Assembly (NCBI RefSeq): GCF_017306585.1
Contig: NZ_JAFKIC010000149.1
Coordinates: 1 to 39,395 of the forward strand
DNA from: Mesorhizobium sp.
GTDB lineage: Bacteria; Pseudomonadota; Alphaproteobacteria; Rhizobiales; Rhizobiaceae
Direction: 5' to 3'
DNA length: 39,395 nucleotides
Under the pieces are notes generated by a model. It was not told the DNA's origin. It saw only the letters and a program-made list of their open reading frames with translations, and ran no database searches. Made by a program: the position numbers and the translations under genes. Below, in pieces: positions 5,306 to 29,138 of this stretch. The number at the start of each line of letters is the position of its first letter. Position 1 is the first letter of the stretch.

Positions 5306-5365
5306 CTGACTGGAGGTCGCTGATTTTGCCACGCTTCTGCGGCGCGGCTTGTATTCAGAAATGCC

Positions 5366-5416
5366 TTACATCCGGTAGGCGATGGTGTCGTTCCAGAAAC
5401 AGGGCAGAGTGTGATT
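5366..5416 (-). pseudogene. Possible 3' end of a host gene at the left attachment site
   Basis: Between the terminator and the integrase, a leftward frame of 16 codons reads NHTLPCFWNDTIAYRM and then TAA (5368-5366). It opens directly after a TGA at 5419-5417, so it has no start of its own. The integrase gene begins only about 40 bp to the right. The arrangement fits a phage inserted into the 3' end of a protein-coding gene, leaving its last codons and terminator at attL. The identity of the gene is unknown and the right-hand copy is outside the window. Confidence 0.3.
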
Positions 5417-5456: not shown

Positions 5457-6560
5457 TCAGCGGGCGTAAGGGATTGGCGGCGCATCCAGAGGTATAGCGG
5501 CGCGCAGCAGCTTTTCCAGTGCCGCCGACGACTTCTCCAGATAATCAGGCGACCAGGCTGCATAGATTTCCGTCATGGAGAACCCCGCCACCTTGTGGCC
5601 CAGTTGCATCGCCGTCTCCCACGGCTGAACGCCTTCACGGCGCAGCCAGCGGGCCACCGTGTGGCGGCAGGAGTAGGCGGTAATCTGCCGATCGAGGTGC
5701 GCGCGCCGGAGCGCGGCGCGGAGACCCTTGTTGATGTGACCGACCTTCTGGCCACGAAACATCAGGACGAAGGGCGTAGTTTTGTCCATCGGCTCCAGCA
5801 CTTCCCGGAGGAAGGGAAGCAGCTTGACCGTAGGACGCCGTTTTGAGGTCTGTTTCCGGCCCTTGGGGTTCAGCTCTATCAAACCGGCTTCAAAATCAAT
5901 CTGCGGCCACGTCAGGGTGGTTATGGCCTCATTCCGCGCACCGGTCCCGAGCATCAATATCAGGAACAGCCGGATATGGTCGCCAGCGGCGGCATACAGG
6001 CGCCGGATTTCCTCGACCTCCATGGGCCGGCCCATCGGCGGCCCCTGCTCCATCGCCGGAACTTCGATGTAAGGCCGGTCGCGGACAATACCGCGCTTCC
6101 ACGCGCGGTTGATTGCCGCGCGGCCTACCTCCAGCCCACGAACCACCGAATTGTGGCTGAGGCCCTTGGCCGCCAGCCACTCCCTGAATTCTTCCTGCTT
6201 GGGTATGTCGCGCAGGTCGGCCACCGTGGCGTCACCCCAGAACTCCAGCCAGTAGCGCAGCAGGATCTTGACCGCCTGCCGCGAGCGCAGCTTTTCGACG
6301 TGGCTGGCCTGATACTCTTTCCATAGGCTTTTCAGCGTGACGGTTTCGGAAGACAGGTCGCGGCCGGTCTTCATGCGCTCCGCCGATACGAACTCCAGCA
6401 GCTTCGCCTTGGCCTCCTCCTCGTCGGAGGTGCCAAGGCTCACCTTGCGGGTCTGCTTCGCGACCTCGTCGTAAAAGGTGCGGTGCCAGGCGGCACTACC
6501 CGGCCGCTTGTCCAGCCAGTAATCGCCCACCTGGAACGCGCGCTTTTGATAACGCGGCAT
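5457..6560 (-). CDS. Tyrosine-type phage integrase
   Basis: The 367-residue site-specific recombinase has an N-terminal SAM-like core-binding domain (about residues 72-160) and a C-terminal catalytic domain. Recognised residues are Arg209 (GTGARNEA), Arg299 (SCRHTVARW), His322 (LGHK) and the nucleophile Tyr333 (EIYAAW). The usual first histidine of the HxxR box is Tyr296 here. It lies at the left end of the element, reading toward the host junction, as expected for an integrase next to attL. The excisionase-like gene starts 4 nt upstream of it on the same strand, so the two are probably cotranscribed. Confidence 0.92.
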   Translation of the reverse strand: MPRYQKRAFQVGDYWLDKRPGSAAWHRTFYDEVAKQTRKVSLGTSDEEEAKAKLLEFVSAERMKTGRDLSSETVTLKSLWKEYQASHVEKLRSRQAVKILLRYWLEFWGDATVADLRDIPKQEEFREWLAAKGLSHNSVVRGLEVGRAAINRAWKRGIVRDRPYIEVPAMEQGPPMGRPMEVEEIRRLYAAAGDHIRLFLILMLGTGARNEAITTLTWPQIDFEAGLIELNPKGRKQTSKRRPTVKLLPFLREVLEPMDKTTPFVLMFRGQKVGHINKGLRAALRRAHLDRQITAYSCRHTVARWLRREGVQPWETAMQLGHKVAGFSMTEIYAAWSPDYLEKSSAALEKLLRAAIPLDAPPIPYAR

Positions 6561-8084: not shown

Positions 8085-8132
8085 ATGTTACGGCTGTATT
8101 TCGTCCGTAATACAGGTTCGATCAATGGCTAG
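8085..8132 (+). CDS. Candidate 15-codon leader peptide
   Basis: A GGAGG box at 8077-8081 is followed by ATG (8085) and a short frame reading MLRLYFVRNTGSING. It ends with a TAG (8130-8132) inside the first codons of the gene starting at 8125. That gene has no clear ribosome-binding site of its own, so termination of this leader could feed ribosomes to it. The frame is very short and unverified. Confidence 0.35.
   Translation: MLRLYFVRNTGSING
8094..8115. promoter_or_regulatory. Operator-like inverted repeat upstream of the 8125 gene
   Basis: CTGTATT (8094-8100), eight bases, then its exact complement AATACAG (8109-8115). A second dyad, TTACGG (8088-8093) and CCGTAA (8105-8110), overlaps it. 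The site ends 9 bp before the start of the plus-strand gene and lies in a divergent intergenic region, as expected for a repressor site or a leader RNA hairpin. Confidence 0.5.
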
Positions 8133-8877
8133 GCTGCCGAGCACACCCAAAGAACCACGCGCTCAGTTCTCAATCGGACTGCCTTCTGACTACGAGAGTC
8201 GGAAGGCAGCATTTCTGGACGAATTTGAAGATATTGCTACGGAACGCTATGGTCCGGGAAAGAAGTTCTCCGGCGTCGTAAGGCTGGCACTTGATGAGCT
8301 TTGGCGGCGACGAAGCGAAGTCCGCTCAAAGGCATCCGATGCGTTTGAACAGGTCGGCCTGACCGGCCTTTTGCCGATGGCGCTGGACCACAGTTTTTCC
8401 CGTCAATTAGTGCGAAGTGAAACGATCTTTCTAGTGATCGACGACTTTTTACCGTGGCTGAGAACAAATGATCATGACCGCGCGCTGGAATATCGTCTTA
8501 GCGAGCTTAAACTACCCACGCACATCATTCTTCCAACGCACGACTCGGATCTGGTCGCTACACCTGAACTGTCTGCCGACAACGAGTACGCCGCAAAGAG
8601 TCTCCTAAAACACATCGCGTTCGATCCGGACGACAATTACCCGTTGCGAATTCTGGCACATGCCAGGCCCCGATACAGCAAATTGCCCTTCGTTTTGATG
8701 ACGGACGACACCTGTTACTTTGCGCCCAGTTTTGAGAGCATTCAGGCGAGCACGGCATTCGTTTATGAGGCGGGCAAGGGGCCGGGCTACCTGACATTCT
8801 CACGAGAGCTTCACGACTTGTCGGCGACGGATTCGAACCTGTTTTGGAACTGGTACAAGGCCGATAAACCCCGTTAG
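8125..8877 (+). CDS. Hypothetical protein of 250 residues
   Basis: I do not recognise the family. The N-terminus (about residues 14-75, SIGLPSDYESRKAAFLDEF, then a helical stretch with RLALDELWRR) could be a ribbon-helix-helix or helical DNA-binding region. The rest is mixed alpha/beta with acidic patches. Codon use is less GC-rich than in the neighbouring relaxase. It precedes the relaxase on the same strand, with 109 bp between, and its expression appears controlled through the dyads and leader at 8085-8115. A role in regulating mobilization or in defence is possible but unsupported. Confidence 0.6.
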   Translation: MARLPSTPKEPRAQFSIGLPSDYESRKAAFLDEFEDIATERYGPGKKFSGVVRLALDELWRRRSEVRSKASDAFEQVGLTGLLPMALDHSFSRQLVRSETIFLVIDDFLPWLRTNDHDRALEYRLSELKLPTHIILPTHDSDLVATPELSADNEYAAKSLLKHIAFDPDDNYPLRILAHARPRYSKLPFVLMTDDTCYFAPSFESIQASTAFVYEAGKGPGYLTFSRELHDLSATDSNLFWNWYKADKPR

Positions 8878-8911
8878 CCGTGTCGCAGACGCAACAGATG
8901 AAATCTAGGAT

Positions 8912-8970
8912 GGTGCAGTTATAGGGCACAATATGGGTCGCAAGCGACCCGAAGTGCCTTGGGCTGCACC
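8912..8970. other. Candidate origin of transfer (oriT): three nested inverted repeats
   Basis: Directly before the relaxase gene, GGTGCAG (8912-8918) pairs with CTGCACC (8964-8970), GGCAC (8925-8929) with GTGCC (8954-8958), and GGGTCGC (8935-8941) with GCGACCC (8944-8950). Together they form one long interrupted hairpin with no T-run, so it does not look like a terminator. Relaxases of this family usually nick next to such hairpins in the short region before their own gene. The nick position cannot be read from sequence alone. Confidence 0.5.
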
Positions 8971-8986
8971 GTGCTAGGGTACTCCT

Positions 8987-10339
8987 GTGGCAATCGCGTA
9001 CTTCAACCACACGTTCATCAAGAAGAATGCTCAGAAAGAGCCCGGCACCGCCGTTGCCAATCTGAATTACAACACCCGCCGTCAGGCGACCGCCTACATC
9101 GGCGCTGGCGGCGGTCTTACCCCAAGCTACGGCCACATCCGTCGACTGCTGGAGGAGCGGGAAAACCGTATCCGCAAGGACGGCCGTGTCATCGAGAAAT
9201 TCATTATCGCCCTGCCGCGCGAGATGACGATGGAGCAGAGCATCGGGACCGTCCACAAGTTCGGCTTCCGGCTTACCCGTGGTGGCCGGGCGCCCTACTA
9301 TTTCTCCATCCAGGACTGGAACACCCACAATCCCCATGTCCACTTCGTCCTGCTCGACCAGGACCGGGAGACAGGCAAGACCGTCGCCAAGGCATGGGAA
9401 CGGAATAGCACCCACCGCTTCAAGCGCCTTTGGCAGGACGTTGCCAACGACGACATGGCGGCGCTTGGGATCGATGCCCGCATTGACTTCGATGCCGCCG
9501 AGGCGAAGGCACAGGGGCAAGAGGCTGCCAACGACAACCTTGAGGCCGATCAGGAGCCTGCACCGCTAAGCACCGATACTGAAGTGGAGCCGACTCTTGA
9601 ATCCGTCGAGGAAGAACCTCTGGAAACAGAGGACGCCGATGACGGCGACGAGGATATGGCCATACTGGAATTGCCGGGCACGCCGCTTGAGAACGTGCTT
9701 GAGGCCCACCGTGAACTTGAGACCCTTCAGAATGCCCAGGCTGAGCTGAAGCGGGTCCAGCAGGACTTCTCCCGGGCGGTCCGCGAGTTCGAGACCGCCG
9801 CGGTCGAAGCCGGATACGCTCACCGGGTCAACGAGATGGCCAAGCAGGCAATCGGGCCGGCCTATCAGGAATATCAGAACTATCTGAAGGACAACGGCCG
9901 GCTAAAGGGTCTGGCGATTGGCATTGGCCGCTGGACGTGGAAGTCGAAGACGCGCCGGCAGGCTGAGGAAGCCGCCCTAAGCCTTCGTGGTCTCCGCTCC
10001 AGACAGGAAGAGACCGCCAGGTCCCTCCGCGAACACGAGGACCAGGTGAAGCGCTGGGAGAACGCCAAGGCCGATTACCGGCGCCAGGAGGAGATGCTGA
10101 ACAATCAGCTCGCCCGTTACAGCAGCGGCAAGAACCAGGACTATGCGGAGAAGCTGTTCAAGGACGCCATTCGCAAGAACATGGAGAAGCTGTCCCTTGA
10201 GGAGCTTCGCGACCTCTACGAGCAGGGCGAACTTTCGGAAGCCAAATACCGCCAGATCCTCCACATCGTCGGCGCCATGCACGAGCTGGACGACCTCGAC
10301 GCGGAGAAGGCGGAGAAGGACCGGAGCGAGGGCTACTGA
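8987..10339 (+). CDS. MobA/MobL-family relaxase (MOBQ type)
   Basis: The 450-residue protein should nick one strand at an oriT and pilot it in conjugative transfer. The N-terminal domain has the probable catalytic Tyr28 (ANLNYNTRRQA) and the metal-binding three-histidine motif HNPHVHF (His114, His117, His119), both typical of the MobA/MobL family. Residues about 170-230 are an acidic linker. Residues about 235-410 are long charged helices, probably coiled coil, with many Gln, Glu and Arg. The start is GTG at 8987, immediately right of the oriT-like hairpin. The stop overlaps by 7 bp the stop of the convergent coupling-protein gene. There is no primase or helicase domain. A relaxase in an otherwise phage-like element is unusual. 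Confidence 0.85.
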   Translation: MAIAYFNHTFIKKNAQKEPGTAVANLNYNTRRQATAYIGAGGGLTPSYGHIRRLLEERENRIRKDGRVIEKFIIALPREMTMEQSIGTVHKFGFRLTRGGRAPYYFSIQDWNTHNPHVHFVLLDQDRETGKTVAKAWERNSTHRFKRLWQDVANDDMAALGIDARIDFDAAEAKAQGQEAANDNLEADQEPAPLSTDTEVEPTLESVEEEPLETEDADDGDEDMAILELPGTPLENVLEAHRELETLQNAQAELKRVQQDFSRAVREFETAAVEAGYAHRVNEMAKQAIGPAYQEYQNYLKDNGRLKGLAIGIGRWTWKSKTRRQAEEAALSLRGLRSRQEETARSLREHEDQVKRWENAKADYRRQEEMLNNQLARYSSGKNQDYAEKLFKDAIRKNMEKLSLEELRDLYEQGELSEAKYRQILHIVGAMHELDDLDAEKAEKDRSEGY

Positions 10340-11904
10340 TAAAACTCTACCACCGTTTTACGCCACAGTCGCTTGACCAGCTTAAAGGGCTTTAAGCCGT
10401 CAACCTTTGCCCTGCCGGGCACGATGAGGATGCACTGCATAAAGCCCATGGCGGCGATCTGGTCCAGGTTCCGGAGGTTGGTGGGCGTCTCGCTCCGGCC
10501 CTGACTGGTACCGTGCTGGCTGGCGCTCTCAGACCGGCCGTAAGAGGTCCGCTTGCCCAGCAGCTTGGATATCCGCTCCAGCCAACCGATCTCGTTCGAG
10601 CCGCCATAAACCAGCAGGCTGCACCCGCCAATCAGCGCTTCGGCGTCTTGCTGAAACGCTTCCTTGATGTCCGATTCCGAGAGGTAAGCCACCAGCAGGT
10701 TTACGCCGGCCTCACCAAGCTCTCGGTTCACGTCCAAGAGCGCGTTGCATCGTTCAATGGTCTTTGCCTCGTCCACGATCACCCACAGACCCTTCCTTAG
10801 CGGGGTGTCGCCGGTGGCGTTGAACATCCTCTTGGCGGAGTTGATCGCGCAGCCGATGAGCAGGCGTACCAGTGCACCTTCACCCGTACCAAGCCCGCAC
10901 CGGATGAAGACCGCCACCGGAGCGTCGTCTGTAAACACTTGCTCCCATGTGAAAGTGTTGACCAGCAACCCTTCCGCATCGCGATGTTCCGTGATGGCGC
11001 GAATAGACGGGCGCAGCCATACCTTCATTTTCTCGAAGTTGGTGGTGATGAAACTACCCTTCTCCCGATCGCCGGCCGACCGGAAAGCGTCCACCGCGGC
11101 GGTGATGATCGGATCTTCCACCAGCGCCATCATGGCGAACAGCGCTTCCCGGCTCTCGTTGCTGCTTACCAGCAGATCAACCGCGTGTGGCACTGTGGCT
11201 TTGCTGGGCTGTTTGAGCAGCAGGTACTTGATCACCCCGGCGATCATGATCTTGGGGTAGTTGTCGAAGTGGCTGTGTTTCCCATGCTTCGCATCGGCCG
11301 CGAGCAGGTCGGCAAACACATCGTTTTGCCGATCGAAATCGTACACATCGTGGATATCGAGGAACGTAACCGGATTGATCCACGCCTCAGTATTGTCTGG
11401 ATTATCGATGTCGATCACCAGCACCTTATAGCCGAGCTTTTCCAGCGTCGGCCTCGTTCGTTTCAACGTGCCGAGCTTCGGGTCGTACATGACCAGGTCC
11501 GGAAGATCCTGACGCCGCCGTTTGATCCTGTTGCCGCCGACTTCCACGGTCTCGGTCACCCAAGGCCGGTTCCGAAGATCCAGCAGGTTGGCGTTGATGG
11601 CCTGTGTTTTCCCCTGCCTCTTGTTGGCTACAATCAGTAGGCTGGATGTTTTTGGAAGATAGACCTTCCGCCGTTTTGGGGTGACGCAGGCGAAGAAGCC
11701 GCCCGGCTTCAGCATCCCCTGCTCCTTCAGTTCCTTATCGGTTGCAAAAGCGGCATCTCCGTGCGTCGGCTCCTCCTTCTGAGCCGTCATGCTACGGTAT
11801 ATGCCCTTTATTATTGCAATTATTCCGAAGACAATAGTACCCAGAAACCAATCAACCCAATTGATTAGTTTCAAAATGCCTAGAAATAACCGAATAACCG
11901 GCAT
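10333..11904 (-). CDS. VirD4/TraG-type coupling ATPase
   Basis: The 523-residue protein has one or two N-terminal membrane segments (FLGILKLINWVDWFLGTIVFGIIAI region, residues 6-31). Next comes a P-loop ANKRQGKTQ (93-101), a VMYDPKLG strand (138-145) and Walker B WVIVDEAKT (374-382). This is the layout of type IV coupling proteins, which deliver relaxase-bound DNA to a secretion channel at the inner membrane. It is shorter than many VirD4 proteins, with little C-terminal extension. It lies tail-to-tail with the relaxase gene and starts in an AT-rich region that also serves the divergent gene at 11995. No VirB-type channel genes are in the window, so a helper system would be needed. Confidence 0.78.
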   Translation of the reverse strand: MPVIRLFLGILKLINWVDWFLGTIVFGIIAIIKGIYRSMTAQKEEPTHGDAAFATDKELKEQGMLKPGGFFACVTPKRRKVYLPKTSSLLIVANKRQGKTQAINANLLDLRNRPWVTETVEVGGNRIKRRRQDLPDLVMYDPKLGTLKRTRPTLEKLGYKVLVIDIDNPDNTEAWINPVTFLDIHDVYDFDRQNDVFADLLAADAKHGKHSHFDNYPKIMIAGVIKYLLLKQPSKATVPHAVDLLVSSNESREALFAMMALVEDPIITAAVDAFRSAGDREKGSFITTNFEKMKVWLRPSIRAITEHRDAEGLLVNTFTWEQVFTDDAPVAVFIRCGLGTGEGALVRLLIGCAINSAKRMFNATGDTPLRKGLWVIVDEAKTIERCNALLDVNRELGEAGVNLLVAYLSESDIKEAFQQDAEALIGGCSLLVYGGSNEIGWLERISKLLGKRTSYGRSESASQHGTSQGRSETPTNLRNLDQIAAMGFMQCILIVPGRAKVDGLKPFKLVKRLWRKTVVEFYQ

Positions 11905-11994
11905 AGTATTTCCCTGTTCAGCTACATCTAAACTGTTTTCTCAACCGGGCGCAAACCCGGCTGAACACCTTTGCGCGCCCTTTCGGAGAGCAAA

Positions 11995-12273
11995 ATGCAA
12001 CCTGCGAAGAAAATGCCTACGCATGACATTCTGGTCGCCACACCGCTGACCGAGAAGGAGAAGGAGCAGGGCGTAAAGCCCTTCTGGACCAAGATCGGCG
12101 CGGCATGGTCGCTGCCCGACGGGAGCGGCTACAGCCTCGTGCTGCAAGCGCTGCCGCTCGATGGCCGGATGGTGATGAAGGTACCCACGGCGAAGGAAGA
12201 CGACCGGCCTGACCCGCGCGACGACCCTCGCTACGGCCAGTCCGACTACCAGACCCGAAGCAACGGCCGATAA
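11995..12273 (+). CDS. Small hypothetical protein next to the coupling ATPase
   Basis: The 92-residue hydrophilic product starts at ATG 11995, which has a GGAG box about 8 nt upstream. The middle (FWTKIGAAWSLPDGSGYSLVLQALPLDGRMVM) is compact and beta-like; the tail is Asp/Arg-rich and disordered. Proteins of this kind are common in alphaproteobacterial mobile elements, but no function is known to me. It is divergent from the coupling protein and 148 bp before ardC. Confidence 0.6.
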   Translation: MQPAKKMPTHDILVATPLTEKEKEQGVKPFWTKIGAAWSLPDGSGYSLVLQALPLDGRMVMKVPTAKEDDRPDPRDDPRYGQSDYQTRSNGR

Positions 12274-12366
12274 ACCCCACCTACGCCGGGTAAAGCCCAG
12301 CCTTCGGCTCCTGTCGGCTGCGGGGCGTTGACCCGGACTACGGCGCGGTTTCAGGCGCTGGGAACA

Positions 12367-12389
12367 CCAAGCCCGCAGTGCGGGCTTGG
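12367..12389. repeat. Long palindrome before ardC
   Basis: CCAAGCCCGCA (12367-12377), one base, then its exact complement TGCGGGCTTGG (12379-12389). The 11-bp arms leave no usable RNA loop, so a protein-bound operator in double-stranded DNA or a cruciform is more likely than a terminator. It ends 32 bp before the ardC start. Confidence 0.55.
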
Positions 12390-12421
12390 CAGCCCCCTCA
12401 CCCAAACATCGCGAGCAACCC

Positions 12422-13330
12422 ATGCACACCACCGAGAATCTGTATTCGGCGGTCACGGACCGCATTGTCTCTGAAATCGAAAAGGGAGGTCTCCTGCCAT
12501 GGCAGAAACCATGGGCCGTCACTCGGTCAAACGGCATCGGCATCATGCCAACCAATGCCGCGACCGGGCGGCCCTATTCGGGCATCAACATCGCCTTGCT
12601 GTGGCTTGCGGCGGGCGATCATGGCTATCCAACCCATGGCTGGATGACCTTCCAGCAGGCCCGGCAGCTTGGCGCTTCCGTCCGCAAGGGCGAAAAGGCC
12701 ACCACTGTCGTCTACACAACCTGGCTTGAGCCCGAGGAGGGAGAGGAAGAAACGCGGAGGCGCCCCATCATGCGGACGTTCTATGTGTTCAACCTCGCCC
12801 AAATCGAAAGCCTGCCGCCTGAGTTCTCCGAAACACCTGCCGAAGTGCCGGTAGAATCCAGCTATCAAGAGGCTTTAAAGACCTTGGACGGTAGCGGGGT
12901 TAAGGTGGAATATCGGGGCTCTCAGGCCTGTTACGTGCCGTCACGCGACATCATCGTGATGCCATCAGCCGGCGCGTTTAAGTCCGAGGAGGCGTTCTTC
13001 CATACTGCCTTCCACGAACTGACCCACGCCACCGGCCACAAAAGCCGGCTGGACCGAGAGTTCGGCAAGCGATTCGGCGACGAGCGCTATGCGTTCGAGG
13101 AGCTGGTGGCGGAGTTGGGCAGCGCTTTCCTGTGTGCCCATCACGACATCCAGCCAGGCAACTCCAGCGATGCATCCTACATCGCCGGATGGCTGAAGGT
13201 GCTGAAGCAGGATAAGCGGGCCATCTTCACCGCAGCAAGCCACGCTTCAAAAGCGGCGGACTGGGTGCGGGAACAGGCTGCCAAGGCGATCGACTGTCCT
13301 GCGGCGCGGGAGATCGAAGCCTCATATTAA
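12422..13330 (+). CDS. ardC: ArdC-like antirestriction / ssDNA-binding zincin protein
   Basis: The 302-residue protein has an N-terminal ArdC-type single-stranded DNA-binding domain (about residues 5-130, with PWQKPW, ATGRPYSGINI and FYVFNLAQI). A C-terminal zincin metallopeptidase-like domain follows, with HELTH (198-202) and the downstream FEELVAELGS (225-234) that supplies the third ligand. Plasmid ArdC proteins protect incoming single strands from restriction and degradation during conjugation. The start ATG 12422 was chosen over an upstream in-frame TTG because homology begins there. It fits the neighbouring relaxase and coupling protein functionally and is followed by a strong terminator. 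Confidence 0.85.
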   Translation: MHTTENLYSAVTDRIVSEIEKGGLLPWQKPWAVTRSNGIGIMPTNAATGRPYSGINIALLWLAAGDHGYPTHGWMTFQQARQLGASVRKGEKATTVVYTTWLEPEEGEEETRRRPIMRTFYVFNLAQIESLPPEFSETPAEVPVESSYQEALKTLDGSGVKVEYRGSQACYVPSRDIIVMPSAGAFKSEEAFFHTAFHELTHATGHKSRLDREFGKRFGDERYAFEELVAELGSAFLCAHHDIQPGNSSDASYIAGWLKVLKQDKRAIFTAASHASKAADWVREQAAKAIDCPAAREIEASY

Positions 13331-13334
13331 GGCG

Positions 13335-13365
13335 ATGACCCCGGTGATGAGCCGGGGTCATTTTT
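13335..13365 (+). terminator. Rho-independent terminator after ardC
   Basis: ATGACCCCGG (13335-13344), seven-base loop, CCGGGGTCAT (13352-13361), then TTTT. It lies 5 bp after the ardC stop and closes the mobilization block. In the other direction it follows the convergent minus-strand gene ending at 13370. Confidence 0.93.
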
Positions 13366-13369
13366 ATGC

Positions 13370-13666: not shown

Positions 13667-13782
13667 TTTCGTATCTCCAAAGCGGTTTCGCCGGGTGGCG
13701 ATTTTACTTCCGCCCCAAGATCCTTTTTCAGAGCCTGACTTCAGCCTCTCGATCGCAAATTATTTTTTGGCCAAACCGGTTT

Positions 13783-14669: not shown

Positions 14670-14861
14670 TTACTGTCCAGCTGTCGGGCTCACAGTCGAA
14701 GGATCGACCAGCTTGGCTTTCACGCTATCGAGGCTGGATTGAACCGGCGCGGTGATGCTGTTCATGCCCGGCACTACGCCCAGGACCGTAACGGTGCCGC
14801 CGAGGCCGAAAATGACCACCAGAAGCTTCCAGTTCTCTTTGATGAAATTGATGATCCCCAT
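14670..14861 (-). CDS. Holin-like small membrane protein
   Basis: The 63-residue protein begins MGIINFIKENWKLLVVIFGLGG and has a single membrane helix (about residues 12-32), then a polar helical tail. The size, topology and position between the endolysin and spanin genes suggest a holin or pinholin. The start ATG 14861 was chosen because the in-frame extension to 15002 crosses an intergenic region. The 167-bp gap to the endolysin gene shows no other gene. Confidence 0.5.
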   Translation of the reverse strand: MGIINFIKENWKLLVVIFGLGGTVTVLGVVPGMNSITAPVQSSLDSVKAKLVDPSTVSPTAGQ

Positions 14862-15028
14862 GTTCTTGTCTTTCCTTATGCAGGAATCAGAACACGAACC
14901 AGCTTGGCTGTAAAATGAAAATGGAGGCCGAAGCCTCCACCCCTGTGTTGCACAAAAGGAAATTTGAACAACTGCGTAGTCATACCGGAGAGGTCTTTCC
15001 ACGCCTCATGAATCTGACACAGCGCTGC

Positions 15029-15430
15029 TTAGGCGACAAGCTCAAAGTGCGGCAGGTCTTCAAGCGAGTTGTCGTGGAAGTCGTTGTCGCCATCCCAATT
15101 CCCGCCCCAGCGCACCGCTACGTCCTCGACCTTGGCGGCGGCGGCGATGACGCCGGCCAGAAAGTCGAACCGCTTGGTGTCCTTCCAGTCAACGGGATAC
15201 GGAACCGCATCACAGGCGTGGGCGAACCCGTCAGGCTGGCGCAAGTGCTTGCTGCTTTTAATCCCGGTGCCCTTGGCTGCGTTGTCGTTGGCGGCGGCTT
15301 GGGTTCGCACAGTCTCCAGGATCATGAAGTCCAGCAGTTGCCAGCTCATGGCGCGACGATAAACGCGCACGAGGTCGGGATGCAGATCTTTCAATCTGGC
15401 TTCGCTGATAGGACCGAAAGCGTAGGTCAT
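15029..15430 (-). CDS. Endolysin, M15 L-alanyl-D-glutamate peptidase type
   Basis: The 133-residue protein has SSKHLRQPDGFAHACDAVPY, a form of the VanY/T5-endolysin zinc motif with His and Asp ligands. A C-terminal RWGGNWDGDNDFHDN...LPHFELV follows, with the third histidine ligand in PHFEL. These enzymes cut the peptide cross-bridges of peptidoglycan during phage lysis. No signal peptide is seen, so release would depend on a holin. The start at ATG 15430 overlaps the stop of the upstream holin-like gene (ATGA); ATG 15442 is an alternative adding four residues. Confidence 0.82.
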   Translation of the reverse strand: MTYAFGPISEARLKDLHPDLVRVYRRAMSWQLLDFMILETVRTQAAANDNAAKGTGIKSSKHLRQPDGFAHACDAVPYPVDWKDTKRFDFLAGVIAAAAKVEDVAVRWGGNWDGDNDFHDNSLEDLPHFELVA

Positions 15431-15618
15431 TTCCGGCGCCATTCCCGAACCTTAAGGGCGATGTTAATGCCCAGATAGACGACGGTCATCACTGAAATGA
15501 TGTTGTTCCAGGTGATGAGGTAGGTGACCACGCCCAGCGTTGTGTTCCCGGTTACCTTGGCAAGCCATGTCGGTGTGATGACGGCTGCGGTATCGGTGAT
15601 TAGGGCGTCACGGTCCAT
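15427..15618 (-). CDS. Holin-like membrane protein
   Basis: The 63-residue protein begins [18 protein letters not shown]. It has one to two hydrophobic segments (LGVVTYLITW and IISVMTVVYLGINIAL) and a short basic tail VREWRRK, a common holin signature. Its start overlaps the tail-fibre stop (TAATG), and its stop overlaps the endolysin start (ATGA), so the three are translationally linked. Together with the gene at 14670 the element has two holin-like candidates, possibly a holin and an antiholin. Confidence 0.6.
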   Translation of the reverse strand: MDRDALITDTAAVITPTWLAKVTGNTTLGVVTYLITWNNIISVMTVVYLGINIALKVREWRRK

Positions 15619-17882
15619 TACGCCACCTTCCATATTTTTACCCTGGCGTAAGTCTCGGTCCCAATATTCATCGGATTTCCCAAGTCTGTCGCACCATTGG
15701 TTTGCGTCCGGTAGTATTGGAGCGCAAAGGCCTTGGAGCCTGAAATCGTTACAATTCCCGATACTCTCGGGTAGACGCACGGGAAGTTGGCGCCGTTGGC
15801 GTTGACGCTCTCTGCCACCGTGGTGCTGTCAGTGATATTCCTGATACGCTCCTTCACCAGGAATCCTGTGCTGGCATTGTAGAATTGCATGCCTTCGGTC
15901 TCGAAATAATAGGTTCCAGCGCCCAGAGTAATCTGGTTTGAGGACAGGGAGGCAATCGAGCCATTGTTCCGAACTGTGGTGTTGAGTGTCCGCGTTGTAT
16001 AGGCGCCGGTAGTGGCGGTCCCGCCGTTGGTGTTTTGCGTCCTTTGGTCCTCGATGATCACGTCCGGCGCCGGAGACGGCGGAGAGACCCATGCGCCATC
16101 GCCCCGCCAGTAGGTCGTGGCATCCGCGCTGGCCCCGCTGTTCAGATTACCGACAGGCAGGTTGCCGGTTACGCCGTTGGCAAGGTTGACCTGGTTCCAG
16201 GAAGGGCTGTTGCTTGTGCCCTGGTTGGACAGGTAGCGCGTGCTGCTGGTTGACTTACCGAGGAGGCTATAGGTGTTGGTCGCGGAACCGTACAACAGGT
16301 CGCCTTGAGCAACCGAGGACTGGTTTGTACCACCACTCGTTGCCCCGAGCGGCGTGGTTATGGAGGCGCTGTTGGCCACCACCCATCGCTGGTTGCTGCT
16401 GGCATCTTGAGCGTAGACCAGGTCAACACCGCTGCTGGCGTTGATCACATAATCGCCACCACCCGGCGTCTTGATACGGTTGGCGGCCGAGGAATTCGCG
16501 TTCTCGTTTTTTAGCGTGCATTTGTAGGCAGTGCCGTCGTTATTCACGACCAGCTTGATGACCCGCCCCAGCACCCCAGTTGCGATCCCTGTCAGGTTGA
16601 AGTCTTCCGTCAGCTTCATGTTGACGACGGCAGCATTGGCGAGGCCAGTAGGGCTGTAGTCGTTGACGTTATGCGACATATCCCCGGCTGGGTTGTCGTC
16701 GATCAGCCCGCCAGTTGCAGGCTTCCAGGTGCCGTCGCCGCTCCAGAAGGTGCTGGCACTGGCGTCGTTGCCGCTGTTGAGGTGTGACACCCCGAGGTTA
16801 CCCGTAACCTCAGAGCCGGAAAGGTCTATGGCAGCGGCGCTCACGACCCCGGATGCGGCTTTGAGTGGGCCTGACAGGCCAGTTGACAGTGTGGTGGTGC
16901 TGGTAGCTGTTAGGGTCGTAAAGCCACCCGCGGCCTTGGTCGTTGCTCCGACCGTAGTTCCATTGATCGTTCCACCAGTAATCGCGACCAAACTGGCATC
17001 CTGACTGGATATGGTGCCAAGCGTTGGTTTTCCAGTCAGGTCAGAATAGGCGCCCGTAGTCGCAACGGTTGCGAGGCTGGGAGTACCCGACAGGTCTGAA
17101 TACGCTCCAGTTGTCGCCACTGTTGCAAGTGAAGGCTTGCCGCTCAAATCGGAATAAGCGCCAGTGGTAGCGACCGTGGCCAGGCTAGAAATGTCGGCCT
17201 TATCGGCATCGAGAGTGTCAAGCGCGTCCGCCACGCTACTACCGGCTACGCCGCTATCGTTGTCGACCTGTGAGGCATCATAGTCGGAGGTTGTGGCGAC
17301 CACATCGCCGGTGCGAGTAAACACGCTGGAAACGCCGCCCACTGCGTCTACGCTGACAACGCCGCTTCCATCGATGGCTAGACCATCCCCGATTTTGATG
17401 CCGCCAAGTACGCTGCCAGTAGCCGTTGGCAGGGTGTAGGACCCATCGGCCCAGAGGGTATCATTATCGGCATCGGAGGCCTTGGCCAGGAATTGGCCGG
17501 TTGTGCCGCCTGCGGGTACTCCAAGCCCGTCGGCTCCATCAGTGCCGTCCGTCCCATCAGCTCCAGGCGCGCCGGTATCGCCTTTATCTCCTTTATCACC
17601 CTTTGCACCTTGGGAACCGGCAGCACCTGTCGGTCCAGTAGCTCCAGTGTCACCTGTATCGCCCTTGTCACCCTTGGCGCCAGCCGGACCTGTAGCACCA
17701 GTTTCGCCCTGTGGTCCTTCCCAGTAATCCAGGTCATTCCAGGCGGTGGTGCCATCACCCTTCTTCAGCTTGGTGGTGTCAGTCTCATATACCAGCTCCC
17801 CAATGAGCAGGACGGGGTTATTGGAGGTCCAGTTAGCGGCAGTATCCTGGGCGGGGACGAGGCGGGTTTTAACGACATTCAC
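15618..17882 (-). CDS. Tail fibre protein with collagen-like and tandem-repeat regions
   Basis: The 754-residue protein begins with a short beta domain ([25 protein letters not shown]-type, about residues 18-52) found at the head of many fibre proteins. It is followed by a collagen-like Gly-X-Y region (about 56-122), three 18-residue repeats (about 234-287) and long Ser/Thr/Gly-rich beta stretches. The C-terminal domain (about 600-754) is probably the receptor-binding tip. The start appears to be GTG at 17882. It follows the tail-collar gene and precedes the lysis genes, and likely determines host range. Confidence 0.82.
17022..17183 (-). repeat. Three tandem 54-bp coding repeats in the tail fibre
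   Basis: Each unit encodes an 18-residue motif [18 protein letters not shown], with small changes in the second and third units (GTP, LTGKPT). The DNA copies are clearly diverged at synonymous sites, so the repeats are not a recent slippage product. They could allow fibre length variation by recombination. Confidence 0.85.
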
Positions 17883-17896
17883 ATCGGGAGCAATCG

Positions 17897-18898
17897 TTAG
17901 GTTTTAATCATCATGTTCAGCATCATGGCGGGCGGCATATTTTGGCTTGAGCCGTCCCCGGCGCTGGAATTGCTCACCGTAATCCCCGTCGTCGCGGTCT
18001 TGGTCACCAGCCGGCTGCCGGTGGTGCCGGTGTCACGCGTCACCGCCGCCCCACTGGGGTTATTGCTGGCAGCTCCAAAGACGGCGTTTGCGTCGTGGGT
18101 ATGGCCTGGATCAGTCACGGACGCGGTGTGGGTATGCCCATGCATCGCTTCGCTACCTCCGACCGCACCTAAGGTTGTCCCCGTAATACCTGAGACCCCG
18201 TTCGTAACCCGGCTGGCCGTCGTGCCACCCATGTTGTCCAATCCGAACACACTGCGGCCTCGTAAATCTGGAAGATTGAATGTCGTGCTCCCATCACCGG
18301 CGCCATATGTCGTTGAGATTGCTGTGAACAGGTTCGCGTAATCAGTCCGGCTTTGTGCGGAACCATCGCACAGCAGCCAACCATCCGGTGGCGTCATTCC
18401 TGCGAACGGCACAACCACTCCCGCAGGTACAAGCGCCAAAGTCGGAATCTGGCTTAGGTTGAGGGTGCCGGAAAGGGTGCTGAAAGAAGCCCACGGGTTG
18501 GCAATCCCCGCAGCCCCCACCGCCACTTGCGCAACGGTATTGTCGATGCCGGTGCCATCCCAATCGACAGTTACCGAGGTGGTGGTGGAATAGCTGGAGG
18601 CGGTGATGGTGCCGTACACCATGCCGCCGATGCCGTCGGTCGCGCGGAGACGCCGGCCGACTTCATAAATCGCGGTCTGATTGCCGGTTACCGTGAATTG
18701 GGTCGAGCTGACGTAGGTCGGCGTGTGGCCGAGATCGATCCAGCCCGGCGCTTCCCACCAGGCCCGCACGTCCGCCATGATTTGACGGAAAATGTCCGAG
18801 ATTTGAGACCGATAAGTCCCACCTTCAGGCGCACCGTAAGGAGGCGTTGCGCTGTTACCGGCAGGCGAGCTGGACCAGTTGCGAATGTGGCTTGTCAC
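17897..18898 (-). CDS. Phage tail-collar domain protein
   Basis: The 333-residue protein has a beta-rich N-terminal region (about 20-140) and a tail-collar domain (about 160-222). Motifs include [43 protein letters not shown] and VFGLDNMGG, which are typical. The C-terminal part is glycine-rich with paired His ([18 protein letters not shown]), often seen in fibre tips with metal-stabilised trimers. The start is GTG at 18898, overlapping no gene but 4 nt after the upstream stop. It lies between the ejection-type genes and the main fibre. Confidence 0.85.
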
Positions 18899-18901
18899 GC
18901 A

Positions 18902-20191
18902 TCAAAGCCCCCTATTGTTGCTGTTTGCGCCGAAACCTGTCAGCGCTCCAAAACCTGAATATTGAGGCGGTAGTTTCCCGCCACGCAGGACAATCTGCAG
19001 GGCATCGTTCATGCGGCGCCGGGCAATGGCGTCAGCGACATTGTCGAGAATGCGCCCGCCCGCATATACGCCGAGCCCGGCAGAGGGGCTGTACCCCGAA
19101 CCGGTCACCGCCGACAGGATGGCAGCAGGGACGCGGCCAACACGGGCAGCAGATTCGCCAATGCCAATGCTACCGGCGCGGCGGAGGGCAGCTTGTTCGG
19201 CCGGAGTGCTGCCGCGCGCCGAGGTGGCCACGTTGCGAAGACGGGTGCGAGCCTGGGTTACGCTAGAACCGCCGGCATCCATTGCGTTGGTGATGTTCCG
19301 CGCAAGCTTGGAGCGTCGGTAGAGGTCTCGGTAATCGGTTGGAACGTCTGCGCTGTCGGTGAAGGTGTCGATATTGTCCCGGATGCGCGAGCTAAGGGGA
19401 TCTCCGCCAAGCTGGCTGCGAAACTCATCTAGCTGGTAGGCATTCGTGCCCTTCCGACCGAAATCTTGGAGGTCCTGCAATGCGGCAGGCGCAATCCGGT
19501 CGCTGATATTGAACACCGAAGGCTGAACGGCATCGATCGTCGGCTGGGTAAGGCCTTGAGAAACCTGTTCAGGGCTGAAGTCGATGTTCTTGGTCTGATT
19601 TTTTGCCAAGACGTAGTCGGCGCGGAGCGATTCCGGCGACGGCGCAGGATTGGTGAAGCCACGGATTCCGTTCAGGGCGGCATTACCAACCTTGCCGCCC
19701 GCCAGCGCTCCAAACAGAGAACCGATCGGACGAGCGCCTTCACCGAAGGTCGCAGAAGACAGGTCACCACCAGCTTCGCTCCCAACTCCTCCTGTAAAGC
19801 CCGTCAGTACCCCCGGCAGCCCGCCAATAATCCCCGTGGTTGCCCCTGCGGCGCCCCCTTGGGTGAGCCGGCCGGCTTCTGTCTTCGGCTGATAAAGATC
19901 GGCCATGAACTGTGTAGCAGGCGCCGACGGTTGACGGGCATTGGGAACCTGTCCTTTGAACAACTGGCCGAGGTCGCTCACATTGGCCATCAGGTCATGG
20001 CCCCAGTTGACCGGGTTCAGGGCGTCAGCGATGTTCCCGGCGCCGATACCAACACCGCTGGCGGCACTTTTAGCGACATCCGTACCAACCGAGGGCGCGG
20101 CAAACTGCTTTTGCAGAACCGCTTCAATGTCGGCCTGCTTCATGTTGTCCGGGAACTCGGCCACATCGCCGTTGGGGAGCTGGACCTGCAT
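18902..20191 (-). CDS. Probable phage DNA-ejection/internal virion protein
   Basis: The 429-residue protein begins MQVQLPNGDVAEFPDNM, a motif common at the N-terminus of large structural proteins of alphaproteobacterial phages. A Gly/Ala-rich amphipathic region follows (about 60-190), then a helical, charged C-terminal half. The ATG at 20191 shares its first base with the stop of the upstream gene (TAATG), which fixes the start. The position corresponds to gp20/gp16 of P22-like phages. Function is inferred from order and composition, not from a recognised domain. Confidence 0.6.
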   Translation of the reverse strand: MQVQLPNGDVAEFPDNMKQADIEAVLQKQFAAPSVGTDVAKSAASGVGIGAGNIADALNPVNWGHDLMANVSDLGQLFKGQVPNARQPSAPATQFMADLYQPKTEAGRLTQGGAAGATTGIIGGLPGVLTGFTGGVGSEAGGDLSSATFGEGARPIGSLFGALAGGKVGNAALNGIRGFTNPAPSPESLRADYVLAKNQTKNIDFSPEQVSQGLTQPTIDAVQPSVFNISDRIAPAALQDLQDFGRKGTNAYQLDEFRSQLGGDPLSSRIRDNIDTFTDSADVPTDYRDLYRRSKLARNITNAMDAGGSSVTQARTRLRNVATSARGSTPAEQAALRRAGSIGIGESAARVGRVPAAILSAVTGSGYSPSAGLGVYAGGRILDNVADAIARRRMNDALQIVLRGGKLPPQYSGFGALTGFGANSNNRGL

Positions 20192-21519
20192 TATTCCAGC
20201 CTCCCGGTAGTCGGGTTGAACTTCCAAGTTTTGGCTTGAGCTGTGCCGGTTTGCTGAGCGCCGGGATTCGAAACCACGGAGCCGAAGAACTTCTCATCAA
20301 ACAGCGGCTTGAGTTTGGCCGTCTCATCATAAAACCCGTCCAAGCTGCCTTGGTCCTTCAGCATACGGCGGGCGATCTTCTCCTCTTCCTTCCGGCGATC
20401 GAGAAGCTTGCTGTAGCTGTCTGCAATCCGGTCGATACCGCCCGGCGTGTTCCAAAGGCTCGGCAACGCCGCGAGGAACATGTTCACGTCGCGGTCAGAG
20501 CTGGAGCCGCTGCCGGGCGCGCGCATGGCAGGGGCGAGCGCGGAGGTGATGGCGGTGATTTGCTGGGCTTCCGGTACCCCATCGAGGTCAACGCCGAACA
20601 GCTGCCCGAATTTCATCCGCGCAACACCCAAGCCGCCCGTCTTGGTGTTGGCGGCAAGTGCCTTGATTTGCTGCACCTGCGGCTCGATTGCGGCAAGCTT
20701 GCGGGTCTGGTCAGCGAGAGCGCCAAAGGTGGCGGTATCGGCCGAGGCAACACCTTCAGCCACGGTCTTGCGGCCAGCCAACGGAACCTCTGCGGCTTGC
20801 TGTTGCAGGGCAGCGTCAACCTTGCGGTTGCCGGTGGATTGGAACAGAGAAGCGTCAGGTGTCTGCCCGACGGCCGGAGGTGGCATAAGATCGCCATTTT
20901 GTTGATTGGCGGCAGATTGGCTCATGGTTGGCGTCGGAAGCGAATTGGAAAGCGCCTGAGCGGCCGGAGGCGGGGAAGCTCCCTGCCCCACCAGCCGGCT
21001 CTTCGGATTCCACGCGTACTGACCACTTACAGGGTCCCATGACCCCTGCAAACGCTGGGCGGTAGCGACAACCCCTTGAGCTACCGCTTTGTCATGTGCG
21101 CTGGAATTAGGATCGGCCAGGACTACCTGGGCACGGGCAAGATCACCTTCAAACCCCTGGCTTTGAACCCCGTATTGGGCTTCCTGCTGTGCCTTGGCAA
21201 TTTTCGCCTGGGTGAGTTGGTCGGCCATACCTTGGTCGTGTTGACGGTTCTGCTCATCATTGAAGGCATCGAGCCCATATCCAAACGAGCCATCAAATCC
21301 GGCACCCTTGCTGTTGGCAATGAGAATGGCACTCCCCATGCGGCCAAGCGCGTTAAGCAGGGCAGGATTGTTGAGCGTCCGATTTGGTTGCGATTGCGCT
21401 TGCTGAGGGTCGGACTGCGGTGTCTGCTGGCCAGTCAATGCGCCAAACCCAAGCTGCTGCTGAGGCATTGCCTGCATCACGCTTTGGTCAAGGATGTTGG
21501 AGGCGGAGAACGGCCACAT
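20191..21519 (-). CDS. Probable internal virion/ejection protein
   Basis: The 442-residue protein is Gln-, Ala- and Ser-rich, beginning MWPFSASNILDQSVMQAMPQQQ, with long helical stretches and a C-terminal charged segment (SYSKLLDRRKEEEKIARRML). Such low-complexity helical proteins are typical of the set ejected into the host with the DNA by podoviruses. Its stop is overlapped by the next start, and its start overlaps the end of the upstream gene. No enzymatic motif such as a lytic transglycosylase was seen. Confidence 0.58.
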   Translation of the reverse strand: MWPFSASNILDQSVMQAMPQQQLGFGALTGQQTPQSDPQQAQSQPNRTLNNPALLNALGRMGSAILIANSKGAGFDGSFGYGLDAFNDEQNRQHDQGMADQLTQAKIAKAQQEAQYGVQSQGFEGDLARAQVVLADPNSSAHDKAVAQGVVATAQRLQGSWDPVSGQYAWNPKSRLVGQGASPPPAAQALSNSLPTPTMSQSAANQQNGDLMPPPAVGQTPDASLFQSTGNRKVDAALQQQAAEVPLAGRKTVAEGVASADTATFGALADQTRKLAAIEPQVQQIKALAANTKTGGLGVARMKFGQLFGVDLDGVPEAQQITAITSALAPAMRAPGSGSSSDRDVNMFLAALPSLWNTPGGIDRIADSYSKLLDRRKEEEKIARRMLKDQGSLDGFYDETAKLKPLFDEKFFGSVVSNPGAQQTGTAQAKTWKFNPTTGRLE

Positions 21520-22379
21520 TACAGGAATGCTCCTGCAAGACCGCCAAGGACGCCTCCACCGAGTGTGCCCCAGGGACCGAGGAATGACCCAGCCTGCGCA
21601 CCTGCCAATGCCCCGCCAAGGCCGCCAGCTATGCCGTTTGAAGCAGGCGTGCCGTTCAGGCTGGAACTGGCAGAATTCTTGAAGTTGGTCGCGCCGGTGC
21701 CGTTCAGGCGGGCGATGTAATCGTCAAGCGCGCCGCCGTTTTGGTAATTGTAGCGGTTCACAAGGTCTGTGAGCTGGGCCTGGTTCTGGGTGTCGTAGGT
21801 CTGGCCTACACCGGTCAGGGCCTGCAAGTTCGAGAAGTCCATGCCCGCCAGCTGCGGCGCCAACGCGGAGGTCTGCACCTGCCGATTCCGCTCATCACCA
21901 TAGTTCTGATAGGCAAGGTTCTGGCTGATATTTCCGATCTGACCGGCGAGATTGTTCTGCGCGTCGCTGACAGCGCCTTGCATCGCCCCCGAACCGTAAC
22001 GCCCTGATTTGCTGAAACTGCCCTGAATCCCCGGCAGCGTTGCCGTCTGGTAGTTTCGCACCAACCCTTGCGTCGCGGCGTCGATAGCGCCTTGCAGGCC
22101 GGGGTTGGAATTGAGATAAGCGCCATTCAGCGTGTTGGTGGCGTTGCCCTGGGCAGCCGATTGCAGCGGGCTGCCGTTCAACGCCCGCTGCTGGGTGAGG
22201 TCTAGTGCTTGCTGGGTTTGGCTGGAGAGCGGAGCGACGGTGCTGGTGGGATAGTACCCGGCGCCAGACTGATAGAGATTTTGGGCCTGCTGAAGGCTGT
22301 CAGTGAGATACGGCTGAACACCAGACCACGGCGTTGTCGTCGTGGTGGTGGTGGACGGGGTTTGTGCTTTGCTTCCCAC
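21519..22379 (-). CDS. Probable phage structural/ejection protein
   Basis: The 286-residue protein begins MGSKAQTPSTTTTTTTPW and is rich in Asn, Gln, Gly and Ala. It ends in a glycine-zipper-like hydrophobic region (GGLGGALAGAQAGSFLGPWG, about 250-270), suited to membrane insertion. Genes with this composition occur after the tail-connector genes in rhizobial podoviruses. By order it could correspond to gp7 of P22, which is ejected first. The start directly follows the stop of the acetyltransferase-like gene. Confidence 0.55.
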   Translation of the reverse strand: MGSKAQTPSTTTTTTTPWSGVQPYLTDSLQQAQNLYQSGAGYYPTSTVAPLSSQTQQALDLTQQRALNGSPLQSAAQGNATNTLNGAYLNSNPGLQGAIDAATQGLVRNYQTATLPGIQGSFSKSGRYGSGAMQGAVSDAQNNLAGQIGNISQNLAYQNYGDERNRQVQTSALAPQLAGMDFSNLQALTGVGQTYDTQNQAQLTDLVNRYNYQNGGALDDYIARLNGTGATNFKNSASSSLNGTPASNGIAGGLGGALAGAQAGSFLGPWGTLGGGVLGGLAGAFL

Positions 22380-22787
22380 TCATAGGCGCTTCCGTATGGT
22401 TGACGTGACTCGGTCGAAGTCACGGGATTTCAGGATTCTCTCCCATCCCTTCCGACCGGTGCCCTCCACGGATGTACAGCCCTGCGCCTTGCACCATTCA
22501 CAGACACTATCGATGAACCCGAGCCAGTCCGTCAAACCATCACCGGCCACGTAGACGATGCAGCCAAGTTTCTCATGACGGGTCTGTAGTATTTGAGTCA
22601 CAGCGACCGCGACCGGCCGAGGGCCATCTACGATGATATAGGCCTGATACTCGCCCTTCAGGAGCCCACCAGCAACGTCCAGCAGGTCTTCCCGGCCATC
22701 CTTGCCGACAACCCGCGCCAGGATAGGCGCGATGTCCGGCCACGCTGGCATGACCTGTTCGCGCGGCAGGGAGCGTAATTCCAACAT
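22380..22787 (-). CDS. GNAT-like/gp14-like late protein
   Basis: The 135-residue product has an alpha/beta pattern (GEYQAYIIVDGPRPVAVAV, LGCIVYVAGDG, WCKAQGCTSVEGTGRKGWE) that recalls phage-encoded GNAT-type acetyltransferases. The final helix-strand with GRKGWERIL is characteristic of small proteins in the head-tail region of P22-like genomes. The acetyl-CoA-binding signature is weak, so enzymatic activity is not certain. The start overlaps the upstream stop (TAATG). Confidence 0.5.
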   Translation of the reverse strand: MLELRSLPREQVMPAWPDIAPILARVVGKDGREDLLDVAGGLLKGEYQAYIIVDGPRPVAVAVTQILQTRHEKLGCIVYVAGDGLTDWLGFIDSVCEWCKAQGCTSVEGTGRKGWERILKSRDFDRVTSTIRKRL

Positions 22788-23011
22788 TATGCGAACTCAT
22801 CGGCCGTCAACATGCCGAGGATGGTGATGGTGTCGTCGCCAAGCTCGTCACTGGCGAGACCGCCGAGGACGAGCGTGCCGGATGCCGTACCGCCACCGCC
22901 AGACAGATTGGCGAAGGCGTTGTTGAGCATTGCGAGGCTCTGGGCGAGCAGCTGGATATATGCCGGATCATTCCGGGCCTGTGGACTGACGAAGAGGGTC
23001 TGGTTTGCCAT
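22787..23011 (-). CDS. Small late-operon protein
   Basis: The 74-residue product begins MANQTLFVSPQARNDPAYIQLL, with a Gly-rich middle and an acidic hydrophobic tail. It lies 2 nt after the gp10-like gene and overlaps the next gene by one base of start/stop. It is part of the late operon by position; the family is not recognised. A small tail or connector accessory is likely. Confidence 0.55.
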   Translation of the reverse strand: MANQTLFVSPQARNDPAYIQLLAQSLAMLNNAFANLSGGGGTASGTLVLGGLASDELGDDTITILGMLTADEFA

Positions 23012-23013
23012 GG

Positions 23014-24489: not shown

Positions 24490-24490
24490 G

Positions 24491-29118: not shown

Positions 29119-29138
29119 CGTCGGGCCGGACAGGAGCG

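Follow-up and report, generated by a model that had tools for sequence, protein, structure and literature searches.

The prophage described here raises the question whether an integrated tailed phage can possess, as a regular part of its genome, the equipment by which small plasmids are mobilized. It is situated on a contig (C189) from a 7.09-Mb draft genome of Mesorhizobium sp. (G000), which was analysed over its whole length of 39,395 bases (hereafter the window), and it extends from around position 5,388 to the contig end. Between its integrase and its late operon lies a block with an origin-of-transfer-like (oriT-like) site, a relaxase, a type IV coupling protein (T4CP) and an antirestriction protein. 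This block is probably a mobilization module conserved within a lineage of temperate tailed phages, to which it would offer a second, helper-dependent conjugative route besides virions. As judged from the elements compared below, it is a conserved feature of the lineage and not an oddity of one damaged prophage.

Components of the mobilization block

The block follows the integrase (minus strand) and some small genes, and is followed by the late operon (minus strand). Its order is as follows.

5457..6560, minus strand: tyrosine integrase (PF00589, E 1.6e-14); homologue in the equivalent place in 13 of 13 compared elements
8125..8877, plus strand: open reading frame (ORF) upstream of the oriT; counterpart of 174-268 amino acids (aa) in 9 aligned elements, with 15-27% identity to that of the window
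8905..8977, unstranded: oriT-like nested inverted repeats; core 8923-8950, hairpin 8935-8950
8987..10339, plus strand: MobA/MobL (MOBQ-type) relaxase, GTG start at 8987; C-terminal part common to phage proteins
10333..11904, minus strand: VirD4/TraG-type coupling ATPase, the T4CP (PF02534, E 2.1e-14; PF12696, E 1.8e-13)
11995..12273, plus strand: small ORF between T4CP and ArdC, 92 aa, without PHROG match
12422..13330, plus strand: ArdC-type antirestriction protein (ArdcN, E 2.1e-38; MPTase-PolyVal, E 1.1e-46)

A first-pass annotation of this DNA had recognised the relaxase, an oriT-like hairpin, the ATPase and ArdC between integrase and late operon, and this assignment is borne out by the domain matches, which exceed the curated cut-offs for all three proteins, and by the folding of the repeat. 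The relaxase matches MobA_MobL (PF03389) with E 9.2e-8 and 32.6 bits (cut-off 26.7), and a profile of 11 phage relaxases finds as its best match the MobA structure 2ns6 of the PDB (E 6.2e-19). Among four relatives scanned with the same Pfam family, G479 and G488 lie above the cut-off, G486 lies below it (17.3) and G489 exhibits no match. Tyr28 and the two histidines of the HxH motif (His117, His119) are kept in all 12 phage relaxases that are compared. The structure model of the relaxase has a mean pLDDT (predicted local distance difference test) of 80.8, that of the ORF at 8125-8877 one of 69.5.

The relaxase and T4CP genes are convergent and overlap by 7 bases (10333-10339). Both the T4SS-DNA_transf and the TraG-D_C domain are found in the coupling proteins of the window and of the prophage of Mesorhizobium sp. 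B2-3-4, and a profile built from eight coupling proteins matches TrwB (2.7e-8). All 13 compared T4CPs contain the Walker GK[ST] and DEA motifs, with Walker A starting with alanine in 11. Concerning the first 90 aa, the best 19-residue hydropathy amounts to 1.92 in the window and to at least 1.6 in 8 of the 13 proteins, and lies between 0.96 and 1.41 in the other five. The start of ArdC is most likely the ATG at 12422.

Folded as single-stranded DNA, the stretch 8905-8980 reaches -21.1 kcal/mol (z -5.15), which none of 200 shuffled sequences equals; the oriT regions of three relatives have z values of -0.9 to -1.8, those of two plasmids -2.2 and -2.9. The nick would presumably be placed on the minus strand, beside the hairpin 8935-8950.

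No VirB/Trb or other channel genes were recognised among the ORFs of the element that were scanned, a subset of all its ORFs. On these ORFs, the earlier description, by which a tailed-phage element houses the kit of a mobilizable plasmid except for the channel, is supported, and the combination of relaxase and oriT without mating channel is that of an integrative mobilizable element (IME). In the host genome, homologues of VirB4 (803 aa), VirB6, VirB8, VirB9 and VirB10 and a VirB5-like gene are found in one run on contig C3, which is a possible helper element. This run occupies positions 9689-18950 of locus L185; the same contig also exhibits a short DNA match to the ArdC region of the window.

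Related elements and loss of head genes

The block is found in the same order in 12 further elements, such that 13 were compared: the window, the prophages of Mesorhizobium sp. B2-3-4 (the closest relative of the block found) and Agrobacterium rubi TR3 (L148), G228, and nine IMG/VR contigs (G479 and G482 to G489). The order and strands of integrase (minus), relaxase (plus), T4CP (minus) and ArdC (plus) are identical in all of them. Since 11 of the 13 were found via block genes, and thus chosen for carrying the block, this synteny is uninformative on frequency; its value lies in showing a constant linkage to one integrase family and to late genes. One further locus with T4CP and ArdC at a contig edge (L073) was excluded, its integrase and relaxase lying beyond the available stretch.

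Single-protein scans of IMG/VR with the relaxase and T4CP of the window confirmed nothing. A scan with the nozzle protein returned two contigs, G479 with a relaxase homologue (E 2.3e-22) and a 16-kb fragment without match, and the remaining relatives were found by scans with ArdC and with T4CP alignments. Of 76 ArdC-bearing loci, many of them short, 8 match the T4CP and 7 the relaxase of the window. A scan of genome contigs returned two loci, an undercount because it was based on a single peptide pattern. Among 397 genomes of the order, 12 match the T4CP profile at E<=1e-25, but above 130 bits only two remain, the own genome with 711 bits and G228 with 238; three neighbourhoods examined among the ten weaker genomes (G163, G262, G278) contain T4CP matches only. 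In 150 relatives searched with the T4CP of the window, the own genome was the sole match. The frequency of the module is low.

Full-size ORFs for the large terminase (TerL) and the portal exist in 8 of the 13 elements (B2-3-4, G479, G482, G483, G484, G486, G487 and G489), and are broken or missing in three (window, G485 and A. rubi); in G488 and G228 these genes fall outside the sequenced stretch compared. Prophages combining terminase, MobA/MobL relaxase and coupling protein, which the first-pass annotation had proposed to look for, thus exist, the relaxase being split in one of the eight (G484). As most relatives keep virion genes, conjugation would add to the virion route and not replace it, except in copies such as that of the window, where the late genes are as follows.

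14670..25078, minus strand: SU10-like virion module with lysis, tail fibre, collar, DNA-ejection, nozzle and adaptor genes
25008..25574, minus strand: portal remnant, corresponding to residues around 343-523 of the 681-aa portal of G479 and to positions 322-492 of 593 in PF23899
25595..26431, minus strand: large terminase remnant (PF04466), covering aa 1-277 of the 424-aa terminase of the B2-3-4 prophage

G479 contains a complete portal and capsid of the SU10 type, and its ORFs between portal and adaptor, including the major capsid gene, find no match in the window at E<=1e-3. Of terminase, portal and major capsid, as expected in a functional tailed phage, the window therefore holds two in shortened form and the third was not found; the damage to head genes noted earlier was, if anything, understated. 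The window copy would thus not be expected to form virions of its own, unless the loss is due to a fault in assembly. In G485, seven late proteins are 98-100% identical to those of G484, and the C-terminal part of the terminase, the portal and the following ORFs are lacking; a capsid gene was not identified in G484. Between ArdC and its early genes, the A. rubi prophage is reduced to a lysis-side ORF, a fragment of an amidase and an ORF weakly resembling a small terminase. Its integrase, relaxase, T4CP and ArdC genes are retained together with the oriT-like repeat (L148, 5073-15866), but hardly anything of the late operon that its relatives have. In all three elements with lost head genes, the reading frames of integrase, relaxase, T4CP and ArdC are uninterrupted, and the oriT-like repeat has been kept. 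This direction, in which head genes are lost and the block is kept, was favoured by the search, because the elements were mostly found via block genes.

Concerning the virion modules, about four kinds can be distinguished: an SU10-like module (window and G479), modules with a portal of the phrog_156 type (B2-3-4, G482, G486, G487) or of the phrog_12082 type (G484 and, by homology, G485), and siphovirus-like modules with tape measure (G489 and G483, with G488 and G228 joined by tape-measure homologues only); the A. rubi element could not be labelled. The labels rest on PHROG and Pfam matches for the window, B2-3-4, G479, G484 and G489 and on shared ORF families for the others, and the TerL of G479, being under the Pfam cut-off (20.8 of 22), was placed by ORF family. 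These modules are scattered over the trees of the mobilization proteins: the labels require 6 changes on the T4CP tree (mean of 200 shuffles 6.8, with 62 of them needing no more) and likewise 6 on the relaxase tree (shuffled 6.0). The most telling case is that of the window and B2-3-4 prophages, which are 91% identical in T4CP, 90% in integrase, 83% in ArdC and 76% in relaxase, but whose portals belong to different families.

The mobilization proteins themselves form phage-only groups. One branch of the T4CP tree divides the 13 phage proteins from 18 others (11 plasmid, 7 chromosomal), with a support of 99 in the Shimodaira-Hasegawa-like approximate likelihood ratio test, G228 being a long branch. 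In the relaxase tree, from which the split gene of G484 is omitted, the 12 phage proteins are separated from 10 plasmid proteins with a support of 100/100, the branches that join the phage rows to two plasmid mobQ rows being long. Phage relaxases and phage T4CPs thus each constitute one clade apart from the sampled plasmid proteins.

Specificity, selection and alternative explanations

Eight of 10 plasmid relaxase genes are preceded by GCGCACTTAT directly 5' of a GGGTTT hairpin, and 8 of the 13 phage elements exhibit, at a matching position, ATAT followed by a GGGTY hairpin; we take this region to be of the IncQ/Ti type of nick region. Related sequences occur in G483, G488 and G228, and a distinct repeat is common to G479 and G482. 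In position, orientation and core, the oriT of the window resembles those of rhizobial MOBQ plasmids. A perfect stem of at least 7 bp within 110 bp upstream is found for 9 of 12 relaxase genes vs 38 of 452 other ORFs; the exceptions are the window and B2-3-4 (both scoring 6) and G488 (4), and G228 (8 bp) was read separately. For the plasmids L189 and L193 the upstream stretch was counted from the start of the match, not from the annotated gene start.

Across 12 phages, similarity of the oriT follows that of the relaxase N-terminal domain (Mantel r 0.59, p 0.0013), also when C-terminal domain and T4CP are partialled out (r 0.54, p 0.003) and when two near-duplicates are left out (r 0.49, p 0.006; partial 0.43, p 0.015), whereas oriT and T4CP are uncorrelated (r -0.05). 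Such covariation is what a working pair of relaxase and oriT would be predicted to exhibit. Single elements illustrate the exchange. G485 resembles G486 and G487 in its N-domain (62-73%) and oriT (0.95), and G479 in its C-domain (59%) and T4CP (77%). Compared with G487, it reaches 73% in the N-domain and 0.95 in the oriT, but only 25% in the C-domain and 31% in the T4CP; compared with G479, the 77% of the T4CP stand against 28% in the N-domain and 0.05 in the oriT. Likewise, G482 resembles G483 in T4CP (62%) and C-domain (51%) but not in N-domain (25%) or oriT (0.09), and resembles G479 in N-domain (44%) and oriT (0.57) but not in C-domain (18%) or in T4CP (33%).

Between the window and B2-3-4, the ratio of nonsynonymous to synonymous divergence (dN/dS) is 0.052 for the T4CP, 0.136 for the relaxase, 0.098 for the integrase and 0.218 for ArdC; between G486 and G487 it is 0.049 for the T4CP and 0.140 for the relaxase, all ratios being approximate because dS is close to saturation. 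By these estimates, relaxase and T4CP are under purifying selection, which is not the pattern expected of decaying cargo.

From the genes, the oriT-like site, their conservation, selection and synteny, the virion genes of the relatives and the VirB genes of the host, all of which are read directly in the sequences, we infer the steps of nicking, docking, transfer and protection as follows. The integrase would excise the prophage; the relaxase would nick the oriT, which directly precedes the relaxase gene, and stay attached via Tyr28; the VirD4-like protein of the phage would link this relaxosome with the type IV channel that a conjugative element in the same cell provides. Once in the recipient, the single strand would be recircularized, shielded from restriction by ArdC, and then integrated. 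Copies without head genes could stay mobile as phage-derived IMEs. Somewhat further reaches the statement, to which we give an even chance, that there is a lineage of integrated temperate phages with two modes of transmission (virions, and an own set of oriT, relaxase and T4CP for helper-dependent conjugation), in which the module of integrase, mobilization genes and ArdC would form a stable core that joins up with unrelated virion modules, oriT and nicking domain would be swapped together as a cassette that sets specificity, and members would repeatedly lose head genes and become phage-derived IMEs.

Several results weigh against a conjugative role of the block. Searched against 50,697 phage records, neither the relaxase nor the T4CP of the window finds a match at E<=1e-3, and the T4CP of a further locus (L085) finds a single weak one (20.7% identity). 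The first histidine of the metal triad is replaced by glutamine in 7 of the 12 relaxases, including that of the window, and kept in 5; the glutamine-type relaxases are nevertheless probably active, because two histidines and the tyrosine are retained and the genes are constrained, and their kinship with the MOBQ family holds. In G484 the reverse of head-gene loss is found: an insertion containing a 545-aa ORF interrupts the relaxase gene (L071, 3286-7517), and T4CP, ArdC and late genes appear whole. The oriT cores were cut by eye for the similarity tests because the multiple alignments were ragged, and the oriT also follows the relaxase C-domain, albeit more weakly (r 0.36, p 0.024). The rank correlation between C-domain and T4CP, expected of docking partners, is not significant (r 0.18, p 0.13). 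Finally, dS between window and B2-3-4 amounts to around 1.2 for relaxase and T4CP, near saturation, which leaves dN/dS approximate.

Some of these points would fit a co-option of relaxase, oriT and T4CP for the DNA metabolism of the phage, in which a nick at the oriT would serve rolling-circle-type replication or packaging, with the membrane ATPase moving or anchoring phage DNA and conjugation playing no part. The phage-only clades, the relaxase C-terminal part common to phages, the lack of recognised channel genes, the glutamine in 7 of 12 relaxases and the constant linkage to the integrase side are all compatible with it. We nevertheless consider it unlikely, as the oriT core is common to mobilizable plasmids and three elements keep the block although their head genes are incomplete; moreover, two of the scanned elements, the window and G487, have HTH_36 proteins, which we take to be of a kind found among phage and plasmid replication genes, and we know of no phage role for a VirD4-like ATPase. 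Quite improbable is a device of interference, by which the block would compete for the mating channels of co-resident conjugative elements or burden them with useless substrate: prophages often carry interference traits, and the block does have channel-contacting parts without a channel, but such a purpose would require neither the fit between oriT and nicking domain nor the strong purifying selection seen for relaxase and T4CP.

That the block is decaying cargo without function is suggested by the broken head genes of the window copy, the insertion sequence (IS) in the element and the interrupted relaxase of G484; with dN/dS of 0.05-0.14, open reading frames in 12 of 13 relaxases and 13 of 13 T4CPs, and retained motifs, this is very improbable. 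Hardly credible is a recent insertion of an IME or plasmid fragment into the window prophage. Small alphaproteobacterial plasmids do carry MOBQ relaxases, with a T4CP gene and an integrase gene each near the relaxase in 7 of 10 stretches, but the block occupies the same position in 13 elements and its proteins form phage-only clades, and the T4CP of the window is just 19-24% identical to its seven best-ranked plasmid matches. A separate element nested in the prophage by its own boundaries, named in the first-pass annotation as a case that would overturn its proposal, was not found; the block lies inside the att sites of the prophage, and beside the same integrase family in the elements compared.

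Comparison with known systems, and the insertion site

The individual parts of the block are of known kinds; what appears to be new is that a mobilization module forms an integral part of a phage lineage. Small plasmids of the MOBQ type from rhizobia and further alphaproteobacteria (e.g., pNCHU2750e, MesoLj131b5) share with the phages the MobA/MobL relaxase, the upstream hairpin with similar core (8 of 10) and a nearby T4CP gene (7 of 10 stretches), but they have plasmid replicons, and their T4CPs belong to other clades. The window relaxase is 32-39% identical to plasmid relaxases over the first 167 aa among the 15 best matches. In PLSDB, the compared plasmids are variously typed as mobilizable, non-mobilizable and, in one case, conjugative. 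IMEs resemble the element in integrase, site-specific insertion, oriT and relaxase (partly with T4CP) and helper dependence, whereas lysis and virion genes are present in addition in the phage element; the available part of the IME text makes no link to phages. SU10-like phages share with the window the portal, adaptor and nozzle, and with G479 the capsid; integrase and mobilization block are peculiar to the element, with relaxase and T4CP unmatched in phage records.

Phages and conjugative elements are usually seen as distinct modes of transfer, with published bridges such as those of PMC10879196 and PMC4260502. The conjugative prophage Phi1207.3 of Streptococcus pyogenes moves in an unexplained, conjugation-like manner (PMC4260502; named in PMC5154133), and its authors propose, in the part of the report available, a novel class of element with a mechanism still to be worked out (PMC4260502); the words relaxase, oriT and type IV are absent from the main text. 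It differs from the Mesorhizobium element in its host, which belongs to another phylum, and in that the latter has an explicit set of oriT, relaxase and T4CP. P1-like phage-plasmids, according to the accessible text, became mobilizable plasmids by gaining relaxase or oriT upon loss of virion functions (PMC10879196); these are extrachromosomal and acquired the parts late, whereas here the module is common to integrated phages of several virion kinds. In the excerpts available, a survey of Mesorhizobium IMEs and plasmids gives one MOBQ gene on a putative IME (PMC8627217), defective prophages are discussed as possible proto-hitchers with no phage case of relaxase and T4CP (PMC11389934), conjugation attempts with Klebsiella prophages failed (PMC6908951), and the term mobilizable prophage is used loosely (PMC11332146, PMC10210954). 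Searches of an open-access library found no description of integrated phages with a shared module of relaxase and T4CP.

If the proposed second route holds, one element could leave its host by virions or by mating, bypassing receptor barriers, and the possible spread of prophages with dead head genes would be explained. The module makes the question of conjugative prophages directly testable, and the 13 natural combinations of oriT, relaxase domains, T4CPs and virion modules constitute a test set for relaxosome specificity.

Like an IME, the window element has an integrase and att sites, and it is integrated between attL and attR, not extrachromosomal as the prophage of a phage-plasmid. Its limits are marked by two further features.

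5365..5398, minus strand: left attachment site (attL) in a MarR-family regulator gene, retained 3' end; 11-bp core common to attL and the right attachment site (attR) at about 5388-5398
39240..39247, unstranded: 8-bp target duplication at the IS66-like insertion, contig end; second copy on contig C301

The left limit of the prophage is the point where chromosomal homology to many genus members stops. Homologues of the left flank are present across genus members, some with an unoccupied insertion site, and the insertion-site gene is uninterrupted in L049/L050. The left end of the B2-3-4 prophage is situated at the same site as that of the window, that of the A. rubi prophage at the corresponding sequence. 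The remainder of the MarR-family gene is found on contig C301 of the same genome, its slightly different 3' end being provided by the element, and beyond the IS around 1.3 kb more of the prophage leads to attR on this contig. The IS at the contig end, presumably an IS66-like one, is situated in the end of a DUF3560 ORF (window 39240-39395; L062 about 4634-4754). The right half of the prophage contains a serine resolvase (PF00239, E 7e-34) at 29079-29696. Four relatives possess, at the far end of the element, DNA methyltransferase genes (L161 730-1920, L163 4069-5196, L164 2819-4114, L159 958-1692), which possibly represent a second anti-restriction measure besides ArdC.

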